The translations under genes were made by a program, and so were the position numbers. Shown here piece by piece: positions 29,143-43,941 of a stretch of 56,718 nt of DNA. Each line of letters begins with the position of its first letter. Within the stretch, counting starts at the first letter, position 1. Source of the stretch: a virus; the IMG/VR virus record IMGVR_UViG_3300044684_000179, positions 1 through 56,718 of that record. The stretch is one strand, 5' to 3'. Under the pieces are notes generated by a model, which had not been told where the DNA came from, did not search any database, and saw nothing but the letters and a program-made list of their open reading frames with translations.

Positions 29143-29662
29143 CCTCGATACGCTCCAGCGCTTCGGCGACGTGCGCCATGTGGTTGGTGGCAACAGCCTT
29201 GGCGGGCGGCTGTTGGCGGCCCTCCATGGACGTGATGAACGAGCCCAACATCACTTGGGCTCGATAGACCCAATGCCGGTATCCCTTCACGGGGCGGCGC
29301 GTGCCGTCCGGCATGTGGACGCAGTTGCTCGGGTCTAGGTCGTAGCCGTGCGTCGCAAGGCGTGTCCATGCTTCGCGCATGCGCTGCTCGTCCTCGGCGC
29401 CGGTGCGCAGCCGCGAGAAGTAGCGCAGGCCGATGACGATCTCGTTGGTGAGCGGCCCGTGCGCGCGGTTCATGTGGTCAGTGATCGACGGCCACAGCAG
29501 CGACGAGGCGCCGAAGTGATACGAGCAAAGCCACTCGCCGCCGTCGCCCACACTGCCCGCCAGCAGGCAACCGTGCGCCGCACAGTTGTGCGACAGCGGC
29601 CGGCTACTGTCCGCATTGGCGGCGCTCGCCTTGTCGGGCACGAGTCCCTTGAAGCCCTTCAT
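29120..29662 (-). CDS. Hypothetical protein with Cys/His cluster (180 aa)
   Basis: HNCAAHGCLLAGSVGDGGEW followed by LCSYHFGA gives a four-ligand Cys/His site near the N-terminus. The centre (FSRLRTGAEDEQRMREAWTR) and end (RHWVYRAQVMLGSFITSMEG) are helical. It directly follows the replication initiator and may be part of the replication set; unknown otherwise. Confidence 0.65.
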   Translation of the reverse strand: MKGFKGLVPDKASAANADSSRPLSHNCAAHGCLLAGSVGDGGEWLCSYHFGASSLLWPSITDHMNRAHGPLTNEIVIGLRYFSRLRTGAEDEQRMREAWTRLATHGYDLDPSNCVHMPDGTRRPVKGYRHWVYRAQVMLGSFITSMEGRQQPPAKAVATNHMAHVAEALERIEDVYPTAY

Positions 29663-30456
29663 GCCGCAGCCCCTTCACGCTGATCGTGATAGCGACCCTC
29701 GGCGACCTTCACGAAGTTCGTCGGCAGCATGAGCCAATCGAAGTCGGCGCGGAACGCGCGCTGACCGGCTCCGCGAGGCGGCACGCGGCCCATGAGGAAG
29801 CGCGAGCGCTTCACGTGCGCGAACAGGTTGCGAAAGAACTGCAGCCCCTCGGCCTGCGGCAGCTTGTCCGCGGCGCATACCTCGCGCCAGCGCGCTTGCA
29901 CGTAGCGGCGGCGCGAATCGTTGAGCACCGCCACCTGCGGCAGCTCTGGCAGCTCCGCGGCGTATGCCTCGACGATGGCCTCGTAGGGGCAGGGCGGCAC
30001 CTTGTAGCCATCCACCTCGCCTACCGCTGCGCGCACGATGTCGCTCAAATCCGCGACCGCCGGCGCATCGTCAGCCGCCTGCGCGTCAGAACCCTCGCGA
30101 ACCCTCGCGAACAGTCGCGACTCGGTTGTCAGCTCGGGCAGCTTGGACTTCGAGGGCTTGTCGATCTTCTGGTGCAGCAGCCAGTTCGTGATCTGGATGT
30201 AGGTGTTACCTTCGATGCGGTAGCGCGCGATGCAGTCCTGCGATTCCAGCTCGTCGAGCCAGCGCGGGATGAGCGCCTTCGCGTCGTCGTCGTAGGGGTA
30301 GAGCTTGCCGGCGATGAGATCGGGATGCCCCCGAAGCCGGCCCTCGTCGTCGGCCATCGTGAACAGCAAGATGAAGCACAGTCGTGCCTCCCTGCTCACG
30401 CGGCCCAGGCTCTCCGATTCGGGCAGCTCGGGCTTGATAGTGCGAATGCGAGGCAT
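29659..30456 (-). CDS. Replication initiator-like protein
   Basis: 265 residues. The N-terminus MPRIRTIKPELPESESLGRV, then SREARLCFILLFTMADDEGR and LRGHPDLIAGKLYPYDDDAK, is a well-known winged-helix domain of phage replication proteins (O-/DnaD-like). The C-terminal part (RYVQARWREVCAADKLPQAE; FFRNLFAHVKRSRFLMGRVP) resembles helicase-loader or DNA-binding regions. The middle of the gene contains three tandem 10-base repeats (30091-30120), so the origin may lie within this gene, as in lambda O. Confidence 0.8.
   Translation of the reverse strand: MPRIRTIKPELPESESLGRVSREARLCFILLFTMADDEGRLRGHPDLIAGKLYPYDDDAKALIPRWLDELESQDCIARYRIEGNTYIQITNWLLHQKIDKPSKSKLPELTTESRLFARVREGSDAQAADDAPAVADLSDIVRAAVGEVDGYKVPPCPYEAIVEAYAAELPELPQVAVLNDSRRRYVQARWREVCAADKLPQAEGLQFFRNLFAHVKRSRFLMGRVPPRGAGQRAFRADFDWLMLPTNFVKVAEGRYHDQREGAAA
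30091..30120. repeat. Three tandem decamers (ACCCTCGCGA type), origin candidate
   Basis: ACCCTCGCGA, ACCCTCGCGA and ACAGTCGCGA follow one another with no gap inside the replication gene. Similar phased units occur at 40601-40650, 40781-40820 and 43734-43763. Confidence 0.6.
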
Positions 30457-30469
30457 GGCCTACCCCGCA

Positions 30470-30859
30470 TCAAGCTGCTGTCGCGATAGCGGCGGCGCGC
30501 TCTGCAAGCCCTTCGGCCTCGCGCGCCAGCTCGCGCACCTCTTCCGGCGTGCCCGCGCGCTCGGCGCGCGCCAGCGCTTCGCGCGCCGAGCGCAACGCAC
30601 TCTCTGCGCGCAGCTTCTGGATTTCCGCGCGCTTCTTCTTCAGCTCGACAGCCGGCAGCATCAGACGGTCCAGGGTGAGCACGTTGCCGCTGGCCGCAAT
30701 GAGGCGATGCGCGAGGTTCGCGCTGGGCCGCTTGCGGTAGTTGACGATGTGTTCGAGGTACTTCACGCCCACCTGCTTGCCGTGTTCGTCTACGCACTTG
30801 GCAGCAAGCGCCTTGACGGCTTCCCTGCCGTACTGCTCGCGGTACTCGAAGAGGTCCAT
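30470..30859 (-). CDS. Cro-like DNA-binding regulator
   Basis: 129 residues, first gene of the leftward early operon. VDEHGKQVGVKYLEHIVNYR then KRPSANLAHRLIAASGNVLT is a helix-turn-helix of the Cro/CI type that selects among related operators, followed by a coiled coil (ELKKKRAEIQKLRAESALRS). Divergent from the repressor gene across the 480-base immunity region, which is the classic lysis-lysogeny arrangement. The DNA target may be the CTACC palindrome. Confidence 0.7.
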   Translation of the reverse strand: MDLFEYREQYGREAVKALAAKCVDEHGKQVGVKYLEHIVNYRKRPSANLAHRLIAASGNVLTLDRLMLPAVELKKKRAEIQKLRAESALRSAREALARAERAGTPEEVRELAREAEGLAERAAAIATAA

Positions 30860-30928
30860 GTGTTGTCGTGTTCCTGTGAACTAGGGGGTGTCGGCGACCG
30901 CCTTGTGCGTGGCAGGTCGCAGTAAGCG

Positions 30929-30943
30929 ATAACAAAAAGGTAG
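30929..30943 (-). promoter_or_regulatory. Palindrome site 6 at the early leftward promoter
   Basis: Minus strand CTACCTTTTTGTTAT, followed by CG. The left half of the palindrome has changed so that GTTAT/TTATCG could serve as the -10 box, as in site 10 (40560), where TATATT overlaps the site end. Located 70 bases before the Cro-like start codon. Confidence 0.5.
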
Positions 30944-31221
30944 CGAACAGGCAGAGAGTACCGGGTTGCGGCAAGAAAGGCAACACGGCCAGGGCAATCC
31001 CTAGAGCCGCACGCGGACGATGCCTTACCTATGTGCGTGGCGTGATCTCGATGCGAACGCAAGCGCCGCGGCGCGATCTCGGTATAGGTGCGGTAGTTGC
31101 TACCAAATCGCTTGCGCGTGGTAGCCATTGCGCAAACGCCGGTAACTCATTGGTGACTAATACCGCTGTAAGCGCGGCTTACCCGATGCCACAATGCACG
31201 CACCCGCCCGACGGGTGCCGG

Positions 31222-31236
31222 CTACCAATTAGGTTG
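31222..31236 (+). promoter_or_regulatory. Degenerate palindrome over the repressor -35 box
   Basis: CTACCAATTAGGTTG: its right half contains the first bases of TTGACA (31234-31239), so binding would affect repressor transcription (autoregulation). Confidence 0.45.
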
Positions 31237-31262
31237 ACATGAGCGGGCATAGCAACCATATT
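31234..31262 (+). promoter_or_regulatory. Repressor promoter
   Basis: TTGACA (31234-31239), a 17-base spacer and CATATT (31257-31262). It gives a leader of about 70 bases before the repressor ATG at 31342. Confidence 0.6.
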
Positions 31263-31341
31263 GGCACCAGTAGAAACCCGGCACCCAAATGCCGCCCGAT
31301 GCGCTACCGCGTGTCGATCAACTTCACGGGATGGACTAGCA

Positions 31342-31935
31342 ATGCGTACCCAAGCAGTTAAAGAACCGTTCAATGTCGCTCTCGTGAGCGTCAAAAGCCG
31401 TCCCGTCAAACGGAGCCCCGGGAGTGCTGCCTTGGCCTCAGATAAGAGCATCTACGACATTCGATTCGAGAACTTCCAGCTACTGTTCTCGGCCTTCAAG
31501 GTAAAGCTCAAGCGTGACTTCCCCGGCGAGCCGGATCGAGGCATGCTGCGCAAGTTCGCAAGCCGCGCCGGCCTCGACGAGCGCTATGCGAGCCACCTGA
31601 ATGTGCGTCGCAAGACAGTGGGCAGCAACACGGCCCGCTCGATGGAGACGGCGCTCGGCTTGCCGGTGAACTTCATGGATCACCCGCACCCCGAGCTGGG
31701 CGAGGAAGCGGTCATTGCGCTGTTGGAGGGCCGCAAGCCTGAGCTGCGTCAGGTGCCTAGCCAAGGCGCGATGCCGGGGCTTCCCGACCTAAGCACCGAC
31801 AAGGGCCTGGAGACCTTCGTCAAGGCTGCGGTGGACGTGTACCGCTGGAGCCCGGAGCGCGCGCAGGCCGCGATGGTTGCGCTGCTGCTCGAACGCCTGA
31901 GCAAGGGCGGTAAGGATGACGGTAACGGTTCCTGA
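31342..31935 (+). CDS. Phage repressor (HTH)
   Basis: 197 residues; a single rightward gene facing away from the Cro-like gene. LRKFASRAGLDERYASHLNV then RRKTVGSNTARSMETALGLP is a lambda-repressor-like HTH whose second part (ARSMETALGLPVNFMDHPHP) is common in phage repressors. There is an N-terminal extension (FENFQLLFSAFKVKLKRDFP) and a C-terminal helical tail, but no S24 self-cleavage domain, so induction by RecA-driven cleavage is not expected from this protein. The start is uncertain; other in-frame starts lie upstream (TTG 31261). Confidence 0.7.
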   Translation: MRTQAVKEPFNVALVSVKSRPVKRSPGSAALASDKSIYDIRFENFQLLFSAFKVKLKRDFPGEPDRGMLRKFASRAGLDERYASHLNVRRKTVGSNTARSMETALGLPVNFMDHPHPELGEEAVIALLEGRKPELRQVPSQGAMPGLPDLSTDKGLETFVKAAVDVYRWSPERAQAAMVALLLERLSKGGKDDGNGS

Positions 31936-32070
31936 TTGAGTGCAGAACTACCATTGAAGTACCCGTCACCACTGCCTATACTGGTCGCTCGACCTGTGAC
32001 GGGTGACACGCTCTAGCGCCCGTTGCGTGCAGTGGTCCGGCAGGCTCAGTCTTTGAGCCACCCAGCAGCC

Positions 32071-32304
32071 ATGATGGTCGAACAGTTGAACAACATCAGG
32101 GCGGCACGGGCCGGCAAACGTATGGGTACGCTAGAACAGGGTGCAGCACGGGAGAACGCATTTGTCGCAATGCTGGAGAAGGTTCCGGCAGAGCAGCGTG
32201 CGGAGGTGCTGCGCGAGCTGATTACCCTGGCAAATCTTCACACGGTCCCCATCATTGACGACGAGGAACCGGAGCCGCCGGCAGCCGCTCTACTCGCGGC
32301 CTGA
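32071..32304 (+). CDS. Small helical protein downstream of the repressor
   Basis: 77 residues from ATG 32071. MMVEQLNNIRAARAGKRMGT then AMLEKVPAEQRAEVLRELIT: helical with acidic end. It lies 135 bases after the repressor and probably in the same transcript. Could be a partner of the repressor; unrecognised. An alternative start is TTG 32023. Confidence 0.55.
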   Translation: MMVEQLNNIRAARAGKRMGTLEQGAARENAFVAMLEKVPAEQRAEVLRELITLANLHTVPIIDDEEPEPPAAALLAA

Positions 32305-32305
32305 A

Positions 32306-32596
32306 TCAGTGCATCGCCCAGGCGAGGCAGAGCAGCAGCACAATCCCGAGCGCCCAGGCGGCGCCGCGCGACTTCGAGCTGCCGCCACTCGGCAGAGTGC
32401 CGCCCTTCGCGGGCGGGCGCGTTTCGACATAGGAGAGACCTGCGCCGATAGCGCTGTAGGTGGCGCGCGTGCCGCGCTTCGACAGGTTCAGTGTGACGCC
32501 GCTGCCACCCAGACTCGTGCTCACGCCTGACTTCGAGAGGTTCATGCGCACGCCGGGCAACACCTTGATGCTCTTGCGGAAGCGAAAGAAGCCCAT
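32306..32596 (-). CDS. DUF4236 family protein with membrane tail
   Basis: 96 residues. MGFFRFRKSIKVLPGVRMNL then SKSGVSTSLGGSGVTLNLSK is the DUF4236 signature, followed by a linker and a C-terminal membrane helix (AWALGIVLLLCLAWAM). The family is widespread in phages and bacteria and has no known role. It is the last gene of the second leftward operon; its stop is one base from the stop of the opposing gene. Confidence 0.85.
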   Translation of the reverse strand: MGFFRFRKSIKVLPGVRMNLSKSGVSTSLGGSGVTLNLSKRGTRATYSAIGAGLSYVETRPPAKGGTLPSGGSSKSRGAAWALGIVLLLCLAWAMH

Positions 32597-32599
32597 TGC

Positions 32600-32956
32600 T
32601 CAATCCTCCACGGCTACCGCGTTGCGGTCAACCTGCTGCTCCTGCTCGCGGTAGAGCAGATGCCACACGGCGCGGTACAGGCGCGAGCGCCACGGCACAC
32701 GCGCCGTACTGTTGAAGTCGCCGTAGTCGATCCCGCGTGTCGCGTTCGCTGCCGCCTTCGCCACCGTGTCGCGCGGGGCCTCAATGCGATAGCGGTAGTC
32801 CTCTTCCGCGGTGATGGTCTCGGCGTAGGTGTGGCGACCGGCGTGGCGCAGGAAACGCTCGGCATCGCCAGGGAACCGGCCGCACACCAACATCGAGTGC
32901 TTGTTGCTTGGATGCTCGGTGATAGACACGAAACAGTCGCTGGTCATGATCCACAT
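32600..32956 (-). CDS. Conserved phage protein of unknown function (118 aa)
   Basis: MWIMTSDCFVSITEHPSNKH and FPGDAERFLRHAGRHTYAET, ending RLYRAVWHLLYREQEQQVDR, match a common family of small phage proteins that begin MW-x-T and contain a short DYxYR segment. The family's role is unknown. The ATG has a ribosome site (AAGGAAG). Confidence 0.7.
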   Translation of the reverse strand: MWIMTSDCFVSITEHPSNKHSMLVCGRFPGDAERFLRHAGRHTYAETITAEEDYRYRIEAPRDTVAKAAANATRGIDYGDFNSTARVPWRSRLYRAVWHLLYREQEQQVDRNAVAVED

Positions 32957-33114
32957 GAGGTACTTCCTTCGTCGGCTCGTTCGGCCGGGTAGTCGATGGC
33001 CTCGTCGCGGGCCTGTTGAATGAGGCGGTCGGCCAGCTTGTCGGTCGCCGCCTCGATGTCGTCGTCGTTGTGGCCGAGGCTGCGCAGCGAGCGCGCTAAA
33101 AGTCGCTCGCTCAT
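32944..33114 (-). CDS. Small hypothetical protein (56 aa)
   Basis: Minus-strand frame MSERLLARSLRSLGHNDDDI then EAATDKLADRLIQQARDEAI. The ATG overlaps the upstream stop and the end overlaps the next gene by 13 bases. Helical, acidic. Likely real because of the couplings. Confidence 0.6.
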   Translation of the reverse strand: MSERLLARSLRSLGHNDDDIEAATDKLADRLIQQARDEAIDYPAERADEGSTSCGS

Positions 33115-33593
33115 TGCTGCACCAGCTCGGCCGGCACCATCACCACGTCACCCTTCTTGCTGGCGACGTAGCAGCGCATGGCGGCGACGAGGGGCTCTTT
33201 CGCAATCGCTTCGTGTGTGCCTTGCCCCTCCCACCCAAAGCGAACGGCGCGCCACTTGCCGTACCAGTCGCCGCCTTCCAGTAGCGGGCCGACCTCGATC
33301 TTTTCGCGCCCGATGATCGGGCCGCCCTGCGCCCAATCGCACCAGGGCCGAAAGTTGACCGCAAAGCGGAAGTCCGGCGTGCGCATGATCTTGAGGGCGC
33401 GCACCGGCGCCTCGACGCCGAACACCACGCAGACATCCGGGTCGCCGTCTTCGGCTTTCGCGTCAACTCCGCAACCCATGCCATGCCGGAAGGCGTAGGT
33501 GAGCCCTTCGCATGAAGGGTCGATCTGCGCGACCGCGTAGCCGAGCGCCGGCCCGGTCAGCTCGCTCGTCTTCACTTCGATCATCGTGCTCAT
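33111..33593 (-). CDS. DUF2591 (NinX-like) protein
   Basis: 160 residues. MIEVKTSELTGPALGYAVAQ and PDFRFAVNFRPWCDWAQGGP, IIGREKIEVGPLLEGGDWYG, then YVASKKGDVVMVPAELV are the DUF2591 family features. Members are found in nin-type regions; activity unknown. Confidence 0.85.
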   Translation of the reverse strand: MSTMIEVKTSELTGPALGYAVAQIDPSCEGLTYAFRHGMGCGVDAKAEDGDPDVCVVFGVEAPVRALKIMRTPDFRFAVNFRPWCDWAQGGPIIGREKIEVGPLLEGGDWYGKWRAVRFGWEGQGTHEAIAKEPLVAAMRCYVASKKGDVVMVPAELVQQ

Positions 33594-33778
33594 GCTGCGG
33601 CTCCCTGTTCACGCGCAGCCATGCGGCGGTCGAAGTCGGCCCACATTTCGACGGTGGCGACGAATTCGCCGTTCAGCAGAAGACGGACGGCGTAGGCGTG
33701 CGAGGACTCCACGGTCAGGTCCGGCCGATGTTTCGCGATCCACTCGCGCACAGCCGGCATGGCTTCGCTCATCTTCAT
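33590..33778 (-). CDS. Hypothetical protein (62 aa)
   Basis: MKMSEAMPAVREWIAKHRPD then LTVESSHAYAVRLLLNGEFV; ATG overlaps the upstream lipoprotein stop. A small alpha/beta protein of unknown role. Confidence 0.6.
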   Translation of the reverse strand: MKMSEAMPAVREWIAKHRPDLTVESSHAYAVRLLLNGEFVATVEMWADFDRRMAAREQGAAA

Positions 33779-34014
33779 GCGCGCCTCCTGCAGATCGGCT
33801 TGCCTGCGGCATCGAGCCGAGGCGTGATGGAGGCGCCCATACCGAACAGGCCGGGCGTCACAAGGTACTGGCATCCGGTGAGCGCATCGGTGCGCGGCGT
33901 GAAGCCGCTACGCCCACCCGGCGGGTCGCTGTCGTCGCGCGGCGTGCACGAGTCGAGCGTCAGCGAGATTGCAAGCAGGGCCACGATAGGCCAGAGGATC
34001 GGGTGCAGCTTCAT
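33775..34014 (-). CDS. Small lipoprotein (79 aa)
   Basis: MKLHPILWPIVALLAISLTL then DSCTPRDDSDPPGG is a lipoprotein signal with Cys in the LDSC lipobox. The rest (TGCQYLVTPGLFGMGASITP; RLDAAGKPICR) contains two cysteines and resembles small DUF6440-type phage proteins. Overlaps both neighbours. Confidence 0.65.
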   Translation of the reverse strand: MKLHPILWPIVALLAISLTLDSCTPRDDSDPPGGRSGFTPRTDALTGCQYLVTPGLFGMGASITPRLDAAGKPICRRRA

Positions 34015-34250
34015 TGCAGGGTCTCCGTGGTCTCGCCGGTCTCGTGCTCGGCGTAGGCATCGAACGGCCACGCATCGGCCGGGGCCGGCGCATGCGCTCG
34101 CACGGTGCCGTCGGGCGTGCGCGGCAGGCGCAGCAGCTTCCCGCAGGCGGGGCAGTAGTGGTGGGTGCAGGTCGGATCGGCCTCGAAGTCCGCCCGCGCG
34201 TCAGCGGGCAGGGGTTGACCGGTGCCTTCGCAGCGCTGTGTGGTGTTCAC
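34011..34250 (-). CDS. Zinc-ribbon protein (79 aa)
   Basis: FEADPTCTHHYCPACGKLLR has a CTHHYCPAC zinc site; an acidic tail follows (WPFDAYAEHETGETTE). Unknown role. Confidence 0.6.
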   Translation of the reverse strand: MNTTQRCEGTGQPLPADARADFEADPTCTHHYCPACGKLLRLPRTPDGTVRAHAPAPADAWPFDAYAEHETGETTETLQ

Positions 34251-34465
34251 AGAATCCTCCCGAGTCGGTCTTGCACTTCCGTGCGCAGCAGCCCGAGCGC
34301 TTCACCATCGCGGCCTGCGCGCAACAGCTCGAACGCGCGCTGCACGAACTCGTCGCTGCAGGTTGCGGAGTAGTCGTTGCGCCCCTCCAGCTCTTCCGCC
34401 AGCTCTTCGGTGCTGATCTCAGACAAGTCAACTTCAACTTCCGTTGTGACGTAGACGCGGGTCAT
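34247..34465 (-). CDS. Hypothetical acidic protein (72 aa)
   Basis: MTRVYVTTEVEVDLSEISTE then ELAEELEGRNDYSATCSDEF. Common small protein type in phages (a beta-hairpin and a helix). Unknown role. Confidence 0.6.
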   Translation of the reverse strand: MTRVYVTTEVEVDLSEISTEELAEELEGRNDYSATCSDEFVQRAFELLRAGRDGEALGLLRTEVQDRLGRIL

Positions 34466-34466
34466 G

Positions 34467-34952
34467 TCAGAGCCCCCGCGGCGTGATCGGCGCGAGGGCC
34501 TGAGCGATCAGCGGGTGAACGGCGCCCGTGCCGGGGTAGTTGGCCGGATCGTTCGCGCCCTCGGCGTCCTCCAGCGCGGCGCGCGCGTCGGCAAACGCCT
34601 TGAACTCGCCCAGGCCGGGCCGGCTCATCGGTACGCCGTGGCGCTCGCAGTGCTCCAGCAGCCCGCGCAGGGCATCGCGCAGCTTCGGCGCCGCGGCGTA
34701 CAGGCTCGCCAGCTCGCGGCTTTCGGCATCGTCGGCCGGGCCGGTGAGTGCCATCACGTCGCCCGTTTCGGCGCACAGCACAGCCGCATGCCTCTTGCCG
34801 TTGCCGAGTTCACAGGTCGGCAAGGGGTTGCCGCGCGCGGCCTCTTCGTCGTTCGTGGCGCGCACGGTGCAGAGCGCCATGATGCCGCCGTCTGGCAGCG
34901 TGGCGTGGATGGTTGCGGTGCCCACGTATGGGCGGCGGGTCGGTCTGGTCAT
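34467..34952 (-). CDS. Hypothetical protein (161 aa)
   Basis: The N-terminal strand region (TATIHATLPDGGIMALCTVR) and LASLYAAAPKLRDALRGLLE with HCERHGVPM are like small accessory phage proteins of the HTPGPW type, which contain an AAPKLL segment. Unknown role. Confidence 0.6.
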   Translation of the reverse strand: MTRPTRRPYVGTATIHATLPDGGIMALCTVRATNDEEAARGNPLPTCELGNGKRHAAVLCAETGDVMALTGPADDAESRELASLYAAAPKLRDALRGLLEHCERHGVPMSRPGLGEFKAFADARAALEDAEGANDPANYPGTGAVHPLIAQALAPITPRGL

Positions 34953-34979
34953 GGTTGGCTCCGGTGAACAGTCGAACAG

Positions 34980-35105
34980 TCAGAAGGGCGCCGAGTGGCA
35001 GCGCGCGGCGCGCTCGCGTCGCAGCTCGCGCAGGTGGCGCCACTGGCGGCGCAGCTCGCGCCAGCCGGCGCGCAGCGCGGCCCAGGCGTCGCGGGCGGCG
35101 CTCAT
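34980..35105 (-). CDS. Tiny Arg/Trp-rich protein (41 aa)
   Basis: MSAARDAWAALRAGWRELRR then QWRHLRELRRERAARCHSAP, a strongly basic amphipathic helix. The ATG overlaps the upstream stop. Could bind nucleic acid or membranes; no family. Confidence 0.5.
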   Translation of the reverse strand: MSAARDAWAALRAGWRELRRQWRHLRELRRERAARCHSAPF

Positions 35106-35458
35106 GCGGCTGCCCCTTTGGCGCGCGCAATGGCAGCGCTGGCGGTGCGCTGAATCTCGGCGAGCGTGTTGGCGGTGGGCGCGGCGGGGCGCAGCGAGGC
35201 GTCGGCGCGGAACGCGGCGCGCAGTGCCGCCTCGGCCGGCGGGAAGATGCGCTCGTGCGTCGCGGTATCCGCCACCAGCGATGCCGCGTCGGCGGCGACG
35301 GCCGCGGCGTCGTAGGCTGACGGCGGCGGCGTCATCCTCCCGTCGCGCACATCGAGCAGCATTTGGGCGAGCGTGAGCACCGTGGCGATCAGCAGCGGCT
35401 GATCGGCGTTCGCGATGGCCTGGGCGAAGATGCCCAGGCGACGATCATTCGAGGTCAT
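35102..35458 (-). CDS. Hypothetical helical protein (118 aa)
   Basis: MTSNDRRLGIFAQAIANADQ then PLLIATVLTLAQMLLDVRDG; Ala-rich and helical. Between the tiny basic protein and the VWA-like gene. Unknown role. Confidence 0.6.
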   Translation of the reverse strand: MTSNDRRLGIFAQAIANADQPLLIATVLTLAQMLLDVRDGRMTPPPSAYDAAAVAADAASLVADTATHERIFPPAEAALRAAFRADASLRPAAPTANTLAEIQRTASAAIARAKGAAA

Positions 35459-35482
35459 GAGGTCTCCCGTGATGTGGTGGGA

Positions 35483-36352
35483 TCAGACGGCGGCCAGCTC
35501 GCCGGAGAACTTCGCAACGGTCTTTTCAACCCATGCCAGCGGGTCGCGCAGCACTTCGGCCGCGTTGCCTTCTTCGGTCATCGAGACGGCAGGCAGGTAG
35601 AGCGTTTCGCCGGGCAGCGCCAGCAGCTCGCGCACGCGGGCCACGTAGGCGGGGCTCTCCACTGCGCCGTAGCGGCTACCGCGCAGCGTTGCCCATTGCC
35701 CGTCGAAACCGTGCAGCAGCTCGGATGCGCCGTAGAACAGGCGCCGCGCCGCAGCCACATCCGACAGCAGCCACGCGGCTGTCGCTAGGTCGAGCGGTGC
35801 CGTGTTGATGCGGCAGCTCACGATGGAGGCCCGCTCTTTGGCATCCAGGCCGGGCGCTCGGCTGTCGCAGCCCATCACGCAGCCCACCTCCAAGGAAACC
35901 GGCCGCACGGCGGCCAGCGCCATCACGGCAGCCAGTGCGGCCACGCCGCGCGTGCGCATGTCCTTCGCCTTTACGCCGCCGGAACAGGTGAGGTCAACGA
36001 ACACCGACAGGGGCGCGCTTTCGTCGCCCTGCGTGGCCGGTGTGCGCATGCACTCGGGCTCGCCCGCCAGCGCCTCGGGCACCACGGGGTAGCAGCCCGC
36101 CACGTCCGCCACATCCACCCAGCGCGAGGTTTCGAGGTTCAGCGCGAGGCGGCCCAGCAGCGCCTCGGCATCGCGCACAGCGGAATCGTTGCCGGCGCGA
36201 GCGTATTGCAGCGCCTTGGGGCCGGTGGTGCTGCCGTAGAAGCTGCGAATGTCGTGAGCCTGCACTCGGGTGCAGCGGTTGCTCTCCAGCCAGTCGGCCA
36301 GCTCCGCGGAACTGTCGAATTGCACCCGGTTGATGGAATCGTCGCGATACAT
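35483..36352 (-). CDS. VWA-like partner of the MoxR ATPase
   Basis: 289 residues. After an N-terminal alpha-rich region, APLSVFVDLTCSGGVKAKDM (about 114-132) has a DxTxS-type sequence (D120, T122, S124) at the end of a hydrophobic strand, as in a VWA metal site, followed by helices and strand (PVSLEVGCVMG). It is encoded directly after the MoxR-type ATPase, in the fixed pairing seen for MoxR/VWA systems. The assignment as VWA is inference. A palindrome-derived ribosome site precedes it. Confidence 0.6.
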   Translation of the reverse strand: MYRDDSINRVQFDSSAELADWLESNRCTRVQAHDIRSFYGSTTGPKALQYARAGNDSAVRDAEALLGRLALNLETSRWVDVADVAGCYPVVPEALAGEPECMRTPATQGDESAPLSVFVDLTCSGGVKAKDMRTRGVAALAAVMALAAVRPVSLEVGCVMGCDSRAPGLDAKERASIVSCRINTAPLDLATAAWLLSDVAAARRLFYGASELLHGFDGQWATLRGSRYGAVESPAYVARVRELLALPGETLYLPAVSMTEEGNAAEVLRDPLAWVEKTVAKFSGELAAV

Positions 36353-36357
36353 GATGG

Positions 36358-36372
36358 CTCCCGTTTTGGTAG
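36358..36372 (-). promoter_or_regulatory. Palindrome site 7, fused to the ribosome site of the VWA-like gene
   Basis: Minus strand CTACCAAAACGGGAG; the last five bases serve as Shine-Dalgarno (GGGAG) six bases before the ATG. Lies in the 35-base gap between two genes of one operon. Confidence 0.55.
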
Positions 36373-36387
36373 TCGTTGCGGGCGTGC

Positions 36388-37797: not shown

Positions 37798-37857
37798 GGT
37801 GGGTTGCGGTTCCTGTTGTCTGCCCGGCGCCACTGCGGTGCCGTTGGGGTGTATTGT

Positions 37858-37872
37858 GTACCAAAAAGGTAG
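37858..37872 (-). promoter_or_regulatory. Palindrome site 8 before the MoxR ATPase gene
   Basis: Minus strand CTACCTTTTTGGTAC, preceded by TTGCAG and followed by ACAATAC (a -10-like sequence). Located 60 bases before the ATG. Confidence 0.55.
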
Positions 37873-37967
37873 CTGCAACCGCTATCTAACAGTCTATTTT
37901 ATAGGGGTTTACCCCTAATTTTGGCTTGGAATTGAGGTGAGGCAAGGGCCCCAGAACAGCCAAAACA

Positions 37968-37988
37968 GCCGAAACGGTAGTTTTCGGC
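37968..37988 (-). terminator. Terminator between DUF6011-like and MoxR genes
   Basis: On the minus strand GCCGAAA-ACTACCG-TTTCGGC followed by TGTTTTGGCTGTTCTGG. A 7-bp stem with a T-rich tail 10 bases after the stop of the upstream gene. Its loop contains a CTACC half-site. Confidence 0.5.
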
Positions 37989-37997
37989 CCCACAGGC

Positions 37998-38618
37998 TCA
38001 CCAGCCGAGCCGTCCGGCGCATACCGGGCCAATTCCGCGGGCAAGGCTGTCCGCGTCGGTGAGCGGCCGGGCGCACACCGAACAGTGCCCGGTCAGCCGG
38101 CCGTGTCGTTCCGCTGCGCTGGCTGGCGATGCAGCAGCCTCGACGATGGCCGCCTGATCCTCCAGGCTGCAGGCCATCGAACGATGGAACGCGCCGCCGG
38201 TGATCTTGCCAAGGTACGTGCCGCCGCGCGTGACGTACAGCGCGCCAGGGTTCTTGCCGCCGGGTTTTGACGGCTTGAATGTGAACACACCGAGCTGCAG
38301 CTTTGGCCGCTGCAGGCCGCTTGCGCGGGCCGCCTCGAATGCGCGCTCGATGGCGCTCACGTCCACGACGGGCGCCGGGTTGCGCGCCTGCTCGGCTTCG
38401 CGCTGGAGCTGGCGCTGGATCGCTTCGAGCTGCCGCGCGGTGAGGGCGCCGTAGTTGCGCAAGCCGAAGCGCAGGCTGTCGGCGAACTGCGATTCGCTGC
38501 GCGACAGCCACGCAGCTTCCGCCGGGTGCTCGGCGGCCCACTGCGCCGCAGCAGCTTGGCGCGGGCTTCGGCGCTGGATCGGCACGATGAGCTGACTGCT
38601 GTAGGTCGTCGTTTGCAT
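37998..38618 (-). CDS. DUF6011-like zinc-binding protein
   Basis: 206 residues. The end TGHCSVCARPLTDADSLARG then IGPVCAGRLGW is the DUF6011 motif (CxxC, then IGPxC), a probable zinc site. The centre has LGVFTFKPSKPGGKNPGALY and VTRGGTYLGKITGGAFH, a beta-rich domain found in phage proteins of this kind; the N-terminus is helical. Start at the ATG preceded by GGGAG, which is part of palindrome site 9. Confidence 0.75.
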   Translation of the reverse strand: MQTTTYSSQLIVPIQRRSPRQAAAAQWAAEHPAEAAWLSRSESQFADSLRFGLRNYGALTARQLEAIQRQLQREAEQARNPAPVVDVSAIERAFEAARASGLQRPKLQLGVFTFKPSKPGGKNPGALYVTRGGTYLGKITGGAFHRSMACSLEDQAAIVEAAASPASAAERHGRLTGHCSVCARPLTDADSLARGIGPVCAGRLGW

Positions 38619-38624
38619 GATTAG

Positions 38625-38639
38625 CTCCCGAAAAGGTAG
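38625..38639 (-). promoter_or_regulatory. Palindrome site 9, fused to a ribosome site
   Basis: Minus strand CTACCTTTTCGGGAG, 6 bases before the ATG of the DUF6011-like gene; GGGAG is the ribosome site. Confidence 0.55.
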
Positions 38640-38668
38640 TCGATGCGGGCGCGCAAAGGCCGGGGCGC

Positions 38669-39556
38669 TTACTTCGGCTCGGGCAGTGCGTTGGGGTAGT
38701 GCTTGGCGATGATTCGGTTCAACTGCTCGACCAGATCGAGGCGCTTGAACCGGACGTGTCCGGCGCCATTGCGGAAGCACTTGACGATCATGTAGTCGTC
38801 GGCCGCGTCCGGGTCGCTCTTGCTGCTCACCTTGTTGAGCAGCGACCACCAGCCGCCGCGATGGTCCGGCTCAGGTTTTCCTTCGAGGACGCGGAACACG
38901 CGCGTCAAGTCGTCCAGCCTGTCGCTGGCGCGGTGATTCAGACAGCCAAGGCTTTCGCCGCTCGAACCGTAGCGCCCAGGGATCACTGAGCCGCGCAAGC
39001 ACTTGATGACAATGCGCTTGCCGAATTTCTGCGGCAGGTTGGTCTTGTAGTCCCAGGCCAGATGCCGGAACACCTCGACGACGCCGCGCTCGAAAATGTC
39101 GCTGCGGCTGTCGTGCAGCATCTTGAAGGTGCTGCGAATGTTGGCGTCTGTCAGCTCAGGGAAGTCGCCCTCGCTGATGGACTTGTCCCAGGTCTCACGC
39201 GCTTTCGCATCCATGAGTGAGCGCATGCCGCTCTGCGCCATGAGGTACTGCCACGCGGCCGCATCGACACCCACGCGCAACAGCCGCTCCACCTCGGCAA
39301 CGTCGCGCGCCTCCATGTGCCAACGCCGGCCGCGCCAGTCGTTGCCCAGGTAGCAGTCGGAGATCGCGCGCTCGCCGCTGTGTCCGCGGCTGAAACTCGT
39401 GCTGATCGTGAAGCGCGGCATGCCCAGGTGCCCGTCGCCAGCGATCATTGCGGCGTCGCGGATCAGCTCGACGGCCTGTAGCAGCTTCGCCATTACCGCC
39501 GCCCGTTGGTTGACGAGGTTGGCGATGCTGACGCTGGGAACGATGTCGGTGCTCAT
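38669..39556 (-). CDS. DUF4942 family protein
   Basis: 295 residues. MDAKARETWDKSISEGDFPE, TFKMLHDSRSDIFERGVVEV and FRHLAWDYKTNLPQKFGKRI followed by VIKCL match DUF4942, a domain found in phage proteins and sometimes fused to DNA methyltransferases. Here it stands alone. The C-terminus (SKSDPDAADDYMIVKCFRNG; AGHVRFKRLDLVEQLNRIIA) may be an added module. Role unknown. Confidence 0.8.
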   Translation of the reverse strand: MSTDIVPSVSIANLVNQRAAVMAKLLQAVELIRDAAMIAGDGHLGMPRFTISTSFSRGHSGERAISDCYLGNDWRGRRWHMEARDVAEVERLLRVGVDAAAWQYLMAQSGMRSLMDAKARETWDKSISEGDFPELTDANIRSTFKMLHDSRSDIFERGVVEVFRHLAWDYKTNLPQKFGKRIVIKCLRGSVIPGRYGSSGESLGCLNHRASDRLDDLTRVFRVLEGKPEPDHRGGWWSLLNKVSSKSDPDAADDYMIVKCFRNGAGHVRFKRLDLVEQLNRIIAKHYPNALPEPK

Positions 39557-39870
39557 GCTTGCTCTCCGGCGGTTGTTGTGATGGCCGCGCGCACCTCATC
39601 CAGCCAGCCGGCGATGAGGGCAGCAGGCCCGGTGCGGCGCGGGTCGCTTTCGAGGATGGCGCTCATACTGGCTTCGAGCTTCAGCAGCGCCTGCAGCAGC
39701 TTGGGAGCAGCCGCGATCAGCTGTGCGTTCGCAAGTTGCTCGGCGGTCCATTGCTCGCCGTTGTGGCGCAGCGCGAACAGCCACTTGCCGCCGGCAGTGA
39801 TGACGCAATACTCGTTCGCGTCGCCTTGCGAACGGACTTCCCACGGCCCCGGGGTGTGCTTGGTGTTCAT
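39553..39870 (-). CDS. HTPGPW family hypothetical protein
   Basis: 105 residues beginning MNTKHTPGPWEVRSQGDANE, then ANAQLIAAAPKLLQALLKLE. The HTPGPW start and the N-x-x-LIAAAPxLL helix are a very common phage protein pattern with unknown function. ATG overlaps nothing; its stop overlaps the DUF4942 start. Confidence 0.8.
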   Translation of the reverse strand: MNTKHTPGPWEVRSQGDANEYCVITAGGKWLFALRHNGEQWTAEQLANAQLIAAAPKLLQALLKLEASMSAILESDPRRTGPAALIAGWLDEVRAAITTTAGEQA

Positions 39871-39901
39871 GCTTCATCCCCAGTGGTACGGCCGGCGGCG
39901 C

Positions 39902-40258
39902 TCACCGCACCCACCTCACGAGCGCTCGCACGTCGTCGAGCGTCACGAAGGGCGGCAGGTCGGCCGTGTTGCCCTCGTCATCGTGGTCCAGCATCACACC
40001 CACACCCGCCAGCGTTCGGCCGGCGAGCTTGAACATGCGCACATGCTCGGGCGCGCGCAGCAGCCCCTCGTCATCCACCCACAGATCAACCAGCGGATGA
40101 ATGCGCGCGAGATCAACCGTCACGCAGTCGATGCGCTTGTAGAGCGCCTGCAGCGTCAGGCCCTCGCCGTCTGCCGTGATGCTTTCTTCGGTCACGGCCT
40201 GGTTCTTCGGGTCGATGACGATGCAGCGATATACCCGGGTGAGAGTTTCAGTGTTCAT
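39902..40258 (-). CDS. DUF3846 family protein
   Basis: 118 residues. LTLQALYKRIDCVTVDLARI and PLVDLWVDDEGLLRAPEHVR, then AGRTLAGVGVMLDHDDEGNT, match DUF3846, in which LQ-x-VxG, DE and the N-x-A pattern recur. These are small proteins of phages and plasmids of unknown function. Confidence 0.8.
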   Translation of the reverse strand: MNTETLTRVYRCIVIDPKNQAVTEESITADGEGLTLQALYKRIDCVTVDLARIHPLVDLWVDDEGLLRAPEHVRMFKLAGRTLAGVGVMLDHDDEGNTADLPPFVTLDDVRALVRWVR

Positions 40259-40296
40259 GGTGGCTCCAGTAAATGCGGCTATGCCGCGGGGTTTAG

Positions 40297-40506
40297 TCAG
40301 CGCTCCAGGCTGGCGGTTTGCGCAAGGTCCGGCGGAATATCGCCGCCGCGCTGCAGCTCTGCCAAAAAATCAGCCCATGCGCCTTGCGTGTCGGCGAGGT
40401 AAACCAGCCGGTCGCCCGCGCGCACGCGGCGGCGGGGGAGGTTCGGGTGGGCTTGCCAGAACGCGCGGCGCACCTGCCGCTGCGTCGTGTACGTGGGTGC
40501 ATTCAT
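40297..40506 (-). CDS. Hypothetical protein, first gene of second leftward operon
   Basis: 69 residues from ATG 40506 with AGGAGCGGAAG upstream. MNAPTYTTQRQVRRAFWQAH then PNLPRRRVRAGDRLVYLADT. Small basic protein, recurrent in phages without function. Confidence 0.65.
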   Translation of the reverse strand: MNAPTYTTQRQVRRAFWQAHPNLPRRRVRAGDRLVYLADTQGAWADFLAELQRGGDIPPDLAQTASLER

Positions 40507-40556
40507 GGTCTTCCGCTCCTGTGTGTTGGGCGGCGTGGGAAGCCCGCCCTGCCGCA

Positions 40557-40584
40557 AATATACCAAAAAGGTAGCGGCTACCAA
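40557..40584 (-). promoter_or_regulatory. Leftward promoter with palindrome site 10
   Basis: On the minus strand TTGGTA (40584-40579), 16 bases, then TATATT (40562-40557). The palindrome CTACCTTTTTGGTAT (40574-40560) fills the spacer and overlaps the -10 box, so repressor binding would shut off the 40506-32306 operon. Confidence 0.6.
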
Positions 40585-40600
40585 GTCACTAGGGAAAACA

Positions 40601-40650
40601 CCTATCGCGAGCACTCTGGAGGTCTCGCGAAGGTTCGCGAGTGCTCTGGA
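40601..40650. repeat. Five phased decamers (TCGCGA/TCTGGA)
   Basis: Five 10-base units end TCGCGA, TCTGGA, TCGCGA, TCGCGA, TCTGGA. A perfect period of 10 bases places all on one face of the helix. Confidence 0.6.
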
Positions 40651-40780
40651 TGCTTTCTCCAACGGTTCCCGAGCGCTTGCGGGTGATGAGCCGTGGTTCC
40701 TGCGGCGACCTACGCGATGTCACACCCCTGATGCGCTCCAACTCATTGACGTAGAAGGAGTTTCTACCGAGCCCGGTGCA

Positions 40781-40820
40781 TGCTTCGCGAATCCTCGCGA
40801 GCATTCGTGAAGCCTCGTTG
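40781..40820. repeat. Four phased decamers, degenerate TCGCGA units
   Basis: TGCTTCGCGA, ATCCTCGCGA, GCATTCGTGA, AGCCTCGTTG: consecutive 10-base units, the last two degenerate. Confidence 0.5.
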
Positions 40821-40855
40821 TAGGACCAAGGAAGGGACCAAGGAGGGGACCATTG

Positions 40856-40885
40856 AGTACCTTCAGCCTGACGGCTTCAGGTACT
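40856..40885. other. Interrupted hairpin before the PAPS-reductase operon
   Basis: AGTACCT-TC-AGCC-TGAC-GGCT-TC-AGGTACT: two paired blocks separated by a symmetrical TC/TC internal loop. Not followed by a T-run; may be a protein-binding site or RNA element. Confidence 0.45.
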
Positions 40886-40949
40886 TGCCGGAACGGCTCG
40901 CGCCGTTGCCGGCGCTGCACTGGCGGCACCGGAAGGTAGCGAAAACGGC

Positions 40950-40978
40950 TTGCAAGTAGCCGCCAATGCGTCCACAAT
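40950..40978 (+). promoter_or_regulatory. Promoter of the 41080 operon
   Basis: TTGCAA (40950-40955), 17 bases, CACAAT (40973-40978). About 100 bases before the GTG start of the PAPS-reductase-like gene. GGTAGCGAAAACGGC lies just upstream (a half palindrome). Confidence 0.5.
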
Positions 40979-41079
40979 GGTTGTCCCGGTGGGTGCATTG
41001 CGTGGTGCCGTGCGCTGTCTCCCGCGGCCTCGCGCGCCGCACCTGCCGGGGCCGTTCAACCGTTGCCCCAGGAGCCCAC

Positions 41080-41838
41080 GTGGTCGCAACAACCAGCCAA
41101 GAACTCATCGCTGAGATTCGGGGTATTACCCCCGAGATACTCGTTTCTTTCAGCCGCGGCAAAGATTCCATCGCAACCTATTTGCGGGTTCGCGAGAAAT
41201 TCGAGAATGTCGTGCCCTATACCTACGAGGTAGTGCCTGGGCTCGAATTTGTCGAGGAATCGTTGGCCTATTACGAAAAACTCATGGGTCGGCGCATCAT
41301 TCGGTTGCCGTCGCCAGGATTCCCGCGGCTGCTGAACAACCTCGTGTTCCAGCCGCCCGACCGCATCGAGCGCATCGAGTACCTGCGCATGCCCGAGTGG
41401 TCGCACGACGACCTGCAGCTTGCGGCCTGCGACGACGCGGGGCTCGATTACGACACGGCCTACAACGCAGTCGGCGTGCGCGCAAAGGACAGCGCCATGC
41501 GCGCGCTCATCATCAAGAAGCACGGGCCGGTCAACCACGTGCGCCGCATCTTCTACCCGATCTTCGACTGGTCGAAGGAAGAGGTGATCGACTGCATCAA
41601 GCGCGCCGGCTGGAAGCTACCCATCGACTACCGCTACTTCAGCAGCAGCTTCGATGGCCTGTACCTCAAGTTCGCGCTGCCCATCAAGCGCTTCTTCCCG
41701 CGCGACTGGCAGCGCCTGTGCGACTACTTCCCGCTGCTGGAGCTGGAGGTGCTGCGCTACGAGTCTGCCGTCAAGCGCGGCGAGCAGCCGCCCTACATCC
41801 CGCCCGATCTCACCGCCTACGAAGGAGCCCTCTCGTGA
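41080..41838 (+). CDS. PAPS reductase-like protein (adenine nucleotide alpha hydrolase fold)
   Basis: 252 residues from GTG 41080, chosen for AGGAG seven bases upstream. PEILVSFSRGKDSIATYLRV carries the SxGKDS PP-loop that binds ATP in PAPS reductase, DndC-like and related enzymes. The rest (YLRMPEWSHDDLQLAACDDA; RRIFYPIFDWSKEEVIDCIK; GWKLPIDYRYFSSSFDGLYL) is a phage subfamily. A sulfur transfer or nucleotide role is possible; no phosphorothioation partner genes are seen. The first 60 codons use more A/T than the neighbours. Confidence 0.85.
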   Translation: MVATTSQELIAEIRGITPEILVSFSRGKDSIATYLRVREKFENVVPYTYEVVPGLEFVEESLAYYEKLMGRRIIRLPSPGFPRLLNNLVFQPPDRIERIEYLRMPEWSHDDLQLAACDDAGLDYDTAYNAVGVRAKDSAMRALIIKKHGPVNHVRRIFYPIFDWSKEEVIDCIKRAGWKLPIDYRYFSSSFDGLYLKFALPIKRFFPRDWQRLCDYFPLLELEVLRYESAVKRGEQPPYIPPDLTAYEGALS

Positions 41839-42293
41839 GCCTGTTACCCAAGGATCAACCCAACCTGCTCGGCGCCGCCGGCATGTCCATCGCGCCGGCC
41901 GGCAAGCCGCTCACGGCCGGCGCCGCCAGCCTCATCGAGGCGCCGGCCGCTGAGACCGGGCCGCTTGATGAGGTGGACGGTGAGACGAGCGAAGAGGTGG
42001 CCGCGAAGCAAGCCGAGCTGGCTCGCGCCATCCTCTCGAATCGCGAGCAGCGCGAAGGCCAGAAGAAGGCCATCGAGCTGGCGAACGACACCGAGTTCTG
42101 GTTCGCCGTGTACTTCCAGACGCGCGAGCAGAAGGAAGCCTTTCTGCGCGCCATCGGCTATGGCGGCGCTCAAGACCCTGACAAGTACCTCGACGGCCAG
42201 GAGCTTGCCGAGAAGCAGGGCATCAAGCTCCCCGCGCGCCCGGCGCCGTACAAGGTCGGCCGCATCGACAAGAAGCTGGCGGACCTGACATGA
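41835..42293 (+). CDS. Hypothetical protein coupled to the PAPS-reductase gene
   Basis: 152 residues from a GTG overlapping the upstream stop (GTGA). After a flexible start, EEVAAKQAELARAILSNREQ, REGQKKAIELANDTEFWFAV and YFQTREQKEAFLRAIGYGGA form a compact helical domain. In several phages a small protein of this type follows a PAPS-reductase-like gene, so the two probably act together. Function unknown. Confidence 0.7.
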   Translation: MSLLPKDQPNLLGAAGMSIAPAGKPLTAGAASLIEAPAAETGPLDEVDGETSEEVAAKQAELARAILSNREQREGQKKAIELANDTEFWFAVYFQTREQKEAFLRAIGYGGAQDPDKYLDGQELAEKQGIKLPARPAPYKVGRIDKKLADLT

Positions 42294-42799
42294 GCGAACA
42301 GTTGGCAATGCAGCCGAAGCCGATCACGAACTGCGTGCCCGGCAAGGTGCACTGCGCGAAATGCGGCTTCACGCTGGTTCGCACGAATCTGTACGTCAAC
42401 AGCGGCACCGCCGGCCCAGGTGGTGAGGAAACGGAACCTTGCCCGAACGACGGCAATCCGATGCTGCCGGTGACGTGGGAGCGGGAGGCACGCGAAGGCT
42501 GGAAGCTCAACGAGCAGTTGTTCGACCGAGCAATTGCCGCGGAGAAGAAAGTCGCGGCGCAGTCCCGCTTCGGCCTCACGCCGCGCCAGCACCTCGAAAG
42601 CGCGATCAAGTGGATCGACGAGCGGCGCGCCCGGTTGCACGCCACCCACTGTTCCATCCATCAGCCGTCCGCGCGCTGCAGTTGTGGCCTGCATCGCACG
42701 CTTTGCGACTTGTACGCGCTGCGTGATGTTCTGCCTGACACCGGCACGGGTGACGCGGCGGTGGCGGATGCGAGCGACAGCGAAGGTGGTGAGCTGTGA
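42290..42799 (+). CDS. Zinc-ribbon protein sharing a module with the 19542 gene
   Basis: 169 residues. Residues 5-87 (QPKPITNCVPGKVHCAKCGF; TLVRTNLYVNSGTAGPGGEE; TEPCPNDGNPMLPVTWEREA) form a zinc ribbon that is about nine-tenths identical to part of the 367-residue protein on the opposite strand. The C-terminal half (HATHCSIHQPSARCSCGLHR) holds a second Cys/His cluster. Unknown role. Confidence 0.7.
   Translation: MSEQLAMQPKPITNCVPGKVHCAKCGFTLVRTNLYVNSGTAGPGGEETEPCPNDGNPMLPVTWEREAREGWKLNEQLFDRAIAAEKKVAAQSRFGLTPRQHLESAIKWIDERRARLHATHCSIHQPSARCSCGLHRTLCDLYALRDVLPDTGTGDAAVADASDSEGGEL
42302..42550 (+). repeat. Inverted duplicate of 19752-20000
   Basis: 249 bases encoding the zinc-ribbon module also found, inverted, within the 19542 gene. 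Confidence 0.8.
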
Positions 42800-43251
42800 G
42801 CGCCGATCTAAGCCACATGCACGGCGCCGAGGTGCGCATGTTGCGCGAGCAGTTGGAGGCGGCCCGAGTCGAGAACGCGCGCCTTCTGCAGCTCATCAAT
42901 ACGCCAGAGCTGCACGACTTTGCCAAGGGCACGCGCCTCGAAGCCGTCCATCAGCGGGAACGCTGGGGTACCGAGCACGACGCCGGAAAGTCGCCTGAGG
43001 ACTGGTTCTGGCTGGTGGGCTACCTCGCCGGCAAGGCCCTACATCACCACAAGGAGGCGCAGCGCCTGCAGCAGCAGCCAATCCACCCGGGAAGCTCCGA
43101 CGAGGCGGCATTGCGGCACGCCGAAGAGAAGGCGCTCCATCACGCCATCAGCACCGCCGCGGCGCTGGCGAACTGGCACGCCGCCATCACCGGCACCAGC
43201 ACCGTCATGCGCCCAGGCATCAAGCCGCCGGCCGCCTTGGAGGCTGCGTGA
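42796..43251 (+). CDS. Hypothetical protein with N-terminal coiled coil (151 aa)
   Basis: GTG start overlapping the upstream stop. EVRMLREQLEAARVENARLL is a coiled coil; EAVHQRERWGTEHDAGKSPE followed by DWFWLVGYLAGKALHHHKEA is a conserved phage segment (QRxRWGxxHD...PxDWFWLxGYLAGKAL) of unknown role. The last part (HHAISTAAALANWHAAITGT) completes that family, whose histidines and acids suggest metal binding. Function unknown. Confidence 0.75.
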   Translation: MSADLSHMHGAEVRMLREQLEAARVENARLLQLINTPELHDFAKGTRLEAVHQRERWGTEHDAGKSPEDWFWLVGYLAGKALHHHKEAQRLQQQPIHPGSSDEAALRHAEEKALHHAISTAAALANWHAAITGTSTVMRPGIKPPAALEAA

Positions 43252-43502
43252 CCAGCAGCGTAAGCGCCGTCGAAAAGCTGTGGCTCCAGAACAAGGAGCT
43301 GCAGAGCAAGGTCGCTGATCTTGAGCGGCGCCTCGCTGACTTGGCGGGAGTCATTCAACGCCGCAACGAGGAAGTCACACACCTCGCGCGCCTGAATGCC
43401 GAACTCAGGACCAGCCTGAACGTGCAGCGCACGCGCACATCACGCCTCACCAAGCGACTGGCCGCACTAAGCCAGGTCAAACAGTCAAAGGACAACCAAT
43501 GA
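43248..43502 (+). CDS. Coiled-coil protein (84 aa)
   Basis: GTG start overlapping the upstream stop. LWLQNKELQSKVADLERRLA then LNAELRTSLNVQRTRTSRLT: one continuous coiled coil. Unknown partner. Confidence 0.65.
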   Translation: MTSSVSAVEKLWLQNKELQSKVADLERRLADLAGVIQRRNEEVTHLARLNAELRTSLNVQRTRTSRLTKRLAALSQVKQSKDNQ

Positions 43503-43669
43503 ACAGCCGTAGCACACAACCCATTGGCCGCGCCGGGCGCCCGCTCACGCCCGCCGAGACACACGAGCGCGCTCTGTTCGTCATCGGCGCCATCGGCATC
43601 GCCTCCGTCTTCGCGATGGTCTTCGACCTTGTGCGCTGGGCGTGCGCCTTCTACGGAATCGGCCAATGA
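43499..43669 (+). CDS. Small membrane protein (56 aa)
   Basis: MNSRSTQPIGRAGRPLTPAE then LFVIGAIGIASVFAMVFDLV, one membrane helix followed by RWACAFYGIGQ. ATG and stop overlap neighbours by four bases. Unknown role. Confidence 0.65.
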   Translation: MNSRSTQPIGRAGRPLTPAETHERALFVIGAIGIASVFAMVFDLVRWACAFYGIGQ

Positions 43670-43941
43670 GCAGCAACCCCTTCGGATTCGGTGGCTCGGC
43701 CACCTACGCGAACGGCGGCGACCCCTCCGGCACGCCTCGCGAGCCCTCGCGAATCCTCGCGAACATTCAGGAGGCAACGGAAGCGCTGGCAAAGCTCGGC
43801 GGCCCGCCCGGCGGCTTCATGCTCATCACCCCGCGGGGCGAGCTGTTCGTCGCGCCCACCTACGACGAGCTGATGCGCCTGACCGCGCACATGCACTCGC
43901 TGCTGCGCCCATCGCCGCTCAACCACCCCATCTCCTTCTGA
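43666..43941 (+). CDS. Hypothetical protein (91 aa) containing decamer repeats
   Basis: MSSNPFGFGGSATYANGGDP then ILANIQEATEALAKLGGPPG. The codons for PREPSRILAN contain three tandem TCGCGA decamers (43734-43763). Start is the ATG overlapping the upstream stop. Unknown role. Confidence 0.6.
   Translation: MSSNPFGFGGSATYANGGDPSGTPREPSRILANIQEATEALAKLGGPPGGFMLITPRGELFVAPTYDELMRLTAHMHSLLRPSPLNHPISF
43734..43763. repeat. Three tandem decamers (CCTCGCGA type)
   Basis: GCCTCGCGAG, CCCTCGCGAA, TCCTCGCGAA in direct succession inside a small gene. Confidence 0.6.

Follow-up and report, generated by a model that had tools for sequence, protein, structure and literature searches.

The window analysed here is the whole IMG/VR virus record IMGVR_UViG_3300044684_000179, a stretch of 56,718 bases that encodes tail, portal, terminase and integrase genes and therefore appears to derive from a temperate tailed phage or prophage. 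It contains tandem decamers with the hexamer TCGCGA, both inside the gene for an O-like replication initiator and in a distant intergenic region. With considerable confidence, these decamers are predicted to be iterons for the phage's own initiator, and the complete intergenic module to which some of them belong is the most probable working origin of replication.

Phased TCGCGA arrays are confined to four loci

A sequence-only reading of the window had proposed phased 10-bp TCGCGA arrays at four loci, and all four were found where it had placed them. The first lies on the minus strand at 30091-30120, within the initiator gene, and consists of three exact TCGCGA units at 10 bp (starts 30095, 30105 and 30115). 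Two arrays lie on the plus strand of the intergenic region. Intergenic array 1 (40601-40650) has the order TCGCGA, TCTGGA, TCGCGA, TCGCGA, TCTGGA at 10 bp, with TCGCGA starting at 40605, 40625 and 40635 and TCTGGA at 40615 and 40645. Intergenic array 2 (40781-40820), offset from array 1 by 180 bp, comprises TCGCGA at 40785 and 40795, TCGTGA at 40805 and TCGTTG at 40815, again at 10 bp. The fourth array, on the plus strand at 43734-43772 within the small open reading frame (ORF) 43666-43941, contains three exact TCGCGA units (43737, 43747 and 43757) followed by TCAGGA at 43767.

The whole record contains 33 TCGCGA hexamers, and all pairs of them less than 60 bp apart are spaced by 10, 20 or 30 bp. 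A search of the record for TCGCGA with a 10-bp period, which had been named beforehand as the check, returned six exact pairs, all of them within the four arrays. In 200 third-order Markov simulations such pairs averaged 0.01 and never exceeded 1, and the reversed TCGCGA pattern, used as a control, gave 0 in the record. When two mismatches were permitted the count was 18 compared with 10.8 expected. Because this excess is weak, the signal resides in the exact arrays.

The in-gene array encodes the start of the initiator linker

The gene at 29659-30456 (minus strand) encodes a protein of 265 amino acids that could be identified as an O-like replication initiator from its matches to PHROG replication initiation families and an AlphaFold2 model. 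The best match was phrog_5810 (E 8.6e-39); the N-terminal half matched phrog_16167, phrog_1408 and phrog_2149, and the C-terminal half phrog_22470 and the O-like phrog_345 (E 3.7e-23). The model (mean predicted local distance difference test score, pLDDT, 84) consists of a confidently predicted N-terminal winged-helix domain (residues ∼1-107), a disordered linker (∼117-149, pLDDT below 50) and a helical C-terminal domain (∼150-257). Foldseek searches with the N-terminal domain retrieved generic winged helix-turn-helix (wHTH) DNA-binding proteins and no match at E ≤ 0.001, and sequence and fold searches of the PDB with the initiator gave generic winged-helix proteins only and no lambda-O-like match. 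Residues 151-257 are 53% identical to Pseudomonas phage phi297-type replication proteins, which share no N-terminal similarity with the initiator. The protein thus looks modular, with an N-terminal half that matches the family with in-gene iterons and a phi297-like C-terminal half.

The in-gene array occupies gene nt 337-366 (codons 113-122), a position that most relatives share. The residues that it encodes, 113-122, form the beginning of the linker and border the stretch with pLDDT below 50, in a part of the protein where amino-acid identity matters least.

The arrays are conserved at the DNA level in the initiator family

In a protein search that was blind to the arrays, in-gene TCGCGA arrays were found in 16 out of 16 relatives sharing the N-terminal domain and in 0 out of 9 relatives sharing only the C-terminal domain. 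Alignment-based scanning of IMG/VR and of GTDB genomes enlarged the family to 116 distinct genes, the initiator gene of the window and 115 relatives; 30 loci that had been found by DNA pattern were excluded from the statistics, as they had been selected for carrying the motif. At least one in-gene TCGCGA array at 10 bp was present in 111 of the 116 genes and two arrays in 91; the usual positions are gene nt 113-143 and 334-358 (around nt 123 and nt 337), ∼214 bp apart. After shuffling of synonymous codons within the genes (100 rounds), a mean of 2.04 and a maximum of 6 of the 116 genes carried an array. Since 73 of the 116 genes are similar to one another, clusters were also counted: arrays were carried by 51 of 56 clusters at 80% identity and by 11 of 14 at 70% identity.

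The wider consensus of the unit is YTCGCGAR, a palindrome, and exact units in the family are spaced by 10 bp in 248 cases and by 11 bp in 2. A period of 10 does not divide evenly into codons, and along one array the hexamer is consequently read in three frames, as S-R, (L/F)-A and R-E (192, 187 and 83 counts). Conservation therefore acts on the DNA and not on the protein. This bears out the earlier proposal that codon constraint is not the cause of the spacing: all three frames are used in the relatives, and codon-preserving shuffles abolish the arrays.

According to record titles, hosts of the family include Hydrogenophaga, Luteibacter, Acidovorax, Herminiimonas, Variovorax, Methylorubrum and Afipia. 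The ancestral location of the arrays is within the initiator gene. In ∼2.5 Mb around the family genes, the only other extra-genic case was one two-unit pair (L209), and each of 50 whole viral records contained 1-4 TCGCGA pairs, located, among the matches listed, in one stretch per record. The phage of the window is thus nearly alone in carrying arrays outside the initiator gene. In a Bradyrhizobium uaiense prophage (L109, ∼10001-10303) the initiator frame, as read, is broken after 12 codons and both TCGCGA arrays, which count as in-gene arrays, are intact. Three further loci (L008 at 10477, L012 at 3649 and L015 at 1521) carry 10-bp TCGCGA arrays on a viral contig or contig part without a recognisable initiator homologue. 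No description of TCGCGA iterons in phages was found in the literature; the search covered open-access papers only, so this is weak evidence.

A second repeat element adjoins the linker array

On the 3' side of the linker array, most relatives carry tandem G-rich repeats of the AGGA type, for example GGATCAAGGATCAAGG, GGACCAAGGACC and GGAAGGGAAGGG. At least four NGGA words per 45 nt were present in the linker of 109 of the 115 relatives, compared with 5 of 84 control stretches further downstream in the genes. The initiator gene of the window has neither AGGA repeats nor an AT-rich tract after its linker array. The first, N-terminal array of the relatives is also absent; the corresponding site at 30310-30345 (minus strand) contains no TCGCGA unit, and HPDLIA replaces SRMLAS. 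Only the linker array at nt 337 is kept. Among the 115 other genes, only L047 likewise lacks both elements, and it has TAGTACC repeats instead.

In more distant homologues the corresponding place of the linker is occupied by other phased repeats: TCACTGA/TCAGTGA in PSonyx and Kp4865-4, TCRCCGA-like repeats in SOVA965, and TCSCCGA at 11 bp at gene nt ∼400-470 in Streptomyces prophages (L111-L148). The Streptomyces homologues would thus use a different iteron code at the same linker position. Such a change of motif with the initiator clade is as expected if the initiator reads the repeats, and falls short of proof.

The families phrog_5810, phrog_16167, phrog_1408 and phrog_2149 include Mycobacterium phage Bernal13 gp48 and Gordonia phage Bantam gp88. 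In Bernal13 (L068, 3000-3880), TCGCGA units spaced by 11 bp are found in the linker and the N-terminal part, followed by GGAACAGG repeats, and these arrays are probably the unannotated origin of a cultured phage. No origin is mentioned in any of the record annotations examined.

The intergenic module is homologous to the probable in-gene origin of the relatives

The elements that the initiator gene of the window lacks were found ∼10.5 kb away, in the divergent intergenic region 40507-41082, which according to the ORFs separates a leftward gene block from a rightward block starting with a phosphoadenosine phosphosulfate (PAPS)-reductase-like gene. There, the module at 40605-40851 has the order array 1, array 2 and AGGA repeats. 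The repeats (40823-40851, plus strand) read GGACCAAGGAAG GGACCAAGGAGG GGACC with a 12-bp period, and this stretch, GGACCAAGGAAGGGACCAAGGAGGGGACC, is the densest AGGA cluster on the plus strand of the record. Positions 40770-40870 align with gene nt 333-406 of the relatives over 60-75 bp at ∼80% identity (E 3e-10), and the aligned stretch spans array 2 and the AGGA repeats together; the flanking DNA of the relatives' loci gave nothing better than E 0.3. The 22-mer GGACCAAGGAAGGGACCAAGGA was found in 6 IMG/VR contigs, always in the linker segment of an initiator gene of the family; in two of the family loci (L064 and L065), the array immediately before it is degenerate. In addition, Bantam gp88 contains inside it a match to a 29-bp stretch of the module.

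The module looks like a whole origin that has been relocated or copied, and the active origin lies most probably at 40.6-40.9 kb. A decayed second initiator gene at 40605-40851 was also considered and was rejected, as no coding similarity beyond repeat-driven matches could be detected.

Several further features were observed in this region. The AT skew flips its sign near 41 kb. Just after the AGGA repeats, a tentative inverted repeat with further stems, GTACCTTCAGCC-TGAC-GGCTTCAGGTAC, lies at 40857-40884 (plus strand), and the single-strand DNA fold of 40820-40930 has a z of -2.91. A conserved hairpin after the repeats is not claimed, as 97 relatives score 6.0, which exceeds the 4.9 and 5.1 of controls by little. 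Rfam gave no match, and DNA searches of the intergenic region against named phages gave no match or only short weak ones. GGTAGC/GCTACC motifs occur at 40562-40582, 40935-40940, 30939-30944 and 31080-31125, some of them as inverted repeats (GGTAGCGGCTACC); they recur in the two main intergenic regions and may be sites of another regulator.

Relatives of the window were also sought outside the initiator gene. The PAPS-reductase gene led to two contigs, both without arrays, and neither the portal (in IMG/VR) nor the small ORF 43666-43941 (in viral contigs) led to any. As these searches gave no array-bearing relatives, close kin offered no means of following the extra-genic sites.

Proposed mechanism and comparison with phage lambda

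The origin of phage lambda is situated midway along the O gene, and its iterons, which are bound by O, are adjacent to a segment where the strands open (PMC7466680). The present family resembles lambda O and ori-lambda, together with their relatives from Stx phages, in having centrally placed iterons in the initiator gene, in the part that encodes the interdomain linker, and in an initiator whose N-terminal DNA-binding part is joined by a linker to a C-terminal part. It differs from lambda in its unit, YTCGCGAR at exactly 10 bp in two clusters ∼214 bp apart in the relatives, and in the neighbouring element, which consists of G-rich repeats of the AGGA type and not of lambda's AT-rich tract. 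In the phage of the window the full module furthermore lies outside the initiator gene; this gene encodes an O-like initiator and carries linker iterons, and no adjacent strand-opening element could be found in it.

In the proposed mechanism, the origin of the family would lie inside the initiator gene and consist of one array where the wHTH domain is encoded, another in the linker-coding part ∼214 bp further on and the AGGA-type repeats behind it. With one unit per helical turn, initiator molecules could bind cooperatively side by side along one face of the helix and distort the DNA. Strands would open, or helicase would enter, at the adjoining repeat segment, to which the C-terminal domain of the initiator would recruit the host helicase. 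In the phage of the window, the working origin would have been moved or copied from the gene into the divergent intergenic region at 40605-40851. The arrays at 30091-30120 and 43734-43763 would then be leftover extra sites for the initiator, either vestigial, regulatory or a second origin, and the latter array may serve as a further binding or titration site. Whether a lambda-type origin has in fact moved out of its initiator gene, leaving a reduced in-gene copy and a complete homologous non-coding module 10.5 kb away, is judged to be evenly balanced.

Some observations weigh against the proposed mechanism. The stretch of homology in the module is short and in part repetitive, and convergence on the same parts is possible. 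The intergenic arrays include TCTGGA and TCGTGA units and are thus more degenerate than the in-gene array. The GC skew does not turn clearly at either the in-gene or the intergenic site, so that the origin is not located by it. No DnaB-type helicase gene (DnaB_C) was found in the record, and the use of the host helicase is thus assumed. Finally, no AGGA repeats adjoin the fourth array (43734-43763), for which only extra binding can be offered as an explanation.

Alternative functions of the arrays

The main alternative is a system with two origins as in phage SPP1, where G38P binds oriL within gene 38 as well as oriR at a distance of 12 kb; oriR is believed to act late, by stalling the fork (PMC3485210). 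Applied to the window, the in-gene array would be the early origin, and the intergenic arrays would stall the fork and start the replication that forms concatemers. The layout is indeed alike: one initiator, one region in its own gene and one distant region (12 kb in SPP1 and ∼10.5 kb in the window, where binding is predicted), with distant arrays at 40605-40820 and 43737-43762 that share the TCGCGA unit of the in-gene array. A Holliday junction resolvase-like and a Sak4-like protein are also encoded in the window. Unlike in SPP1, however, the distant site is the more complete one, whereas the in-gene site is without a first array or AGGA repeats, and relatives with an in-gene origin show, among the matches listed, no second site. 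The two-origin reading is considered possible though less likely; under a relocated origin too, the in-gene array may possibly act as a second, SPP1-like site.

It is rather unlikely that the extra arrays are not origins at all and, as iteron decoys or by handcuffing, act as titration or copy-control sites that limit free initiator. Two of the three places hold little beyond arrays, which would suit such a role, but the twin arrays and AGGA repeats at 40605-40851 exceed what a decoy needs.

Besides origin iterons, the sequence-only reading had considered a partition site and sites for a second regulator. The first option gained strong support from the conservation of the arrays in the initiator gene family, their lambda-O-like position and the adjoining second repeat element, whereas both others were weakened. 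Operators and centromeres also appear as phased repeats in divergent promoter regions, and a promoter-like site is present at 40584-40557. In the 115 relatives, however, the arrays sit in the initiator gene and almost never elsewhere, so that they track this gene and nothing else, and neither a ParB_N (PF02195) nor an AAA_31/ParA-type (PF13614) match was found anywhere in the record, in which ParM and ParR of ParMRC-type systems were not searched. Sites for another DNA-binding protein, such as a repressor or a ParB- or ParR-like protein, are accordingly considered improbable. Protein-level repeats or codon bias combined with chance arrays elsewhere, which might be suspected as three relevant stretches lie in coding DNA of a GC-rich genome, can be dismissed, being already refuted by the three reading frames of the 10-bp period and the synonymous shuffles, and further opposed by two intergenic sites and the Markov expectation of 0.01 pairs.

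Implications for the phage family

These results provide a definition of the predicted origin at the sequence level for a large family of uncultivated phages, in which the initiator gene is located and the origin is read inside it; this includes prophages of Burkholderiales, Rhizobiales, Xanthomonadales and other Proteobacteria. They reveal strong selection on the DNA within a protein-coding linker, where one hexamer is read in three frames. The dependence of the motif on the clade would make the protein-DNA specificity of the initiators predictable and testable. The window offers a natural example of an origin that seems to be separated from the gene, and it permits a direct test of the purpose of the in-gene position. 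If the origin has indeed moved, the initiator gene would be freed from carrying it in its coding sequence, and the origin would be a separate, mobile module.

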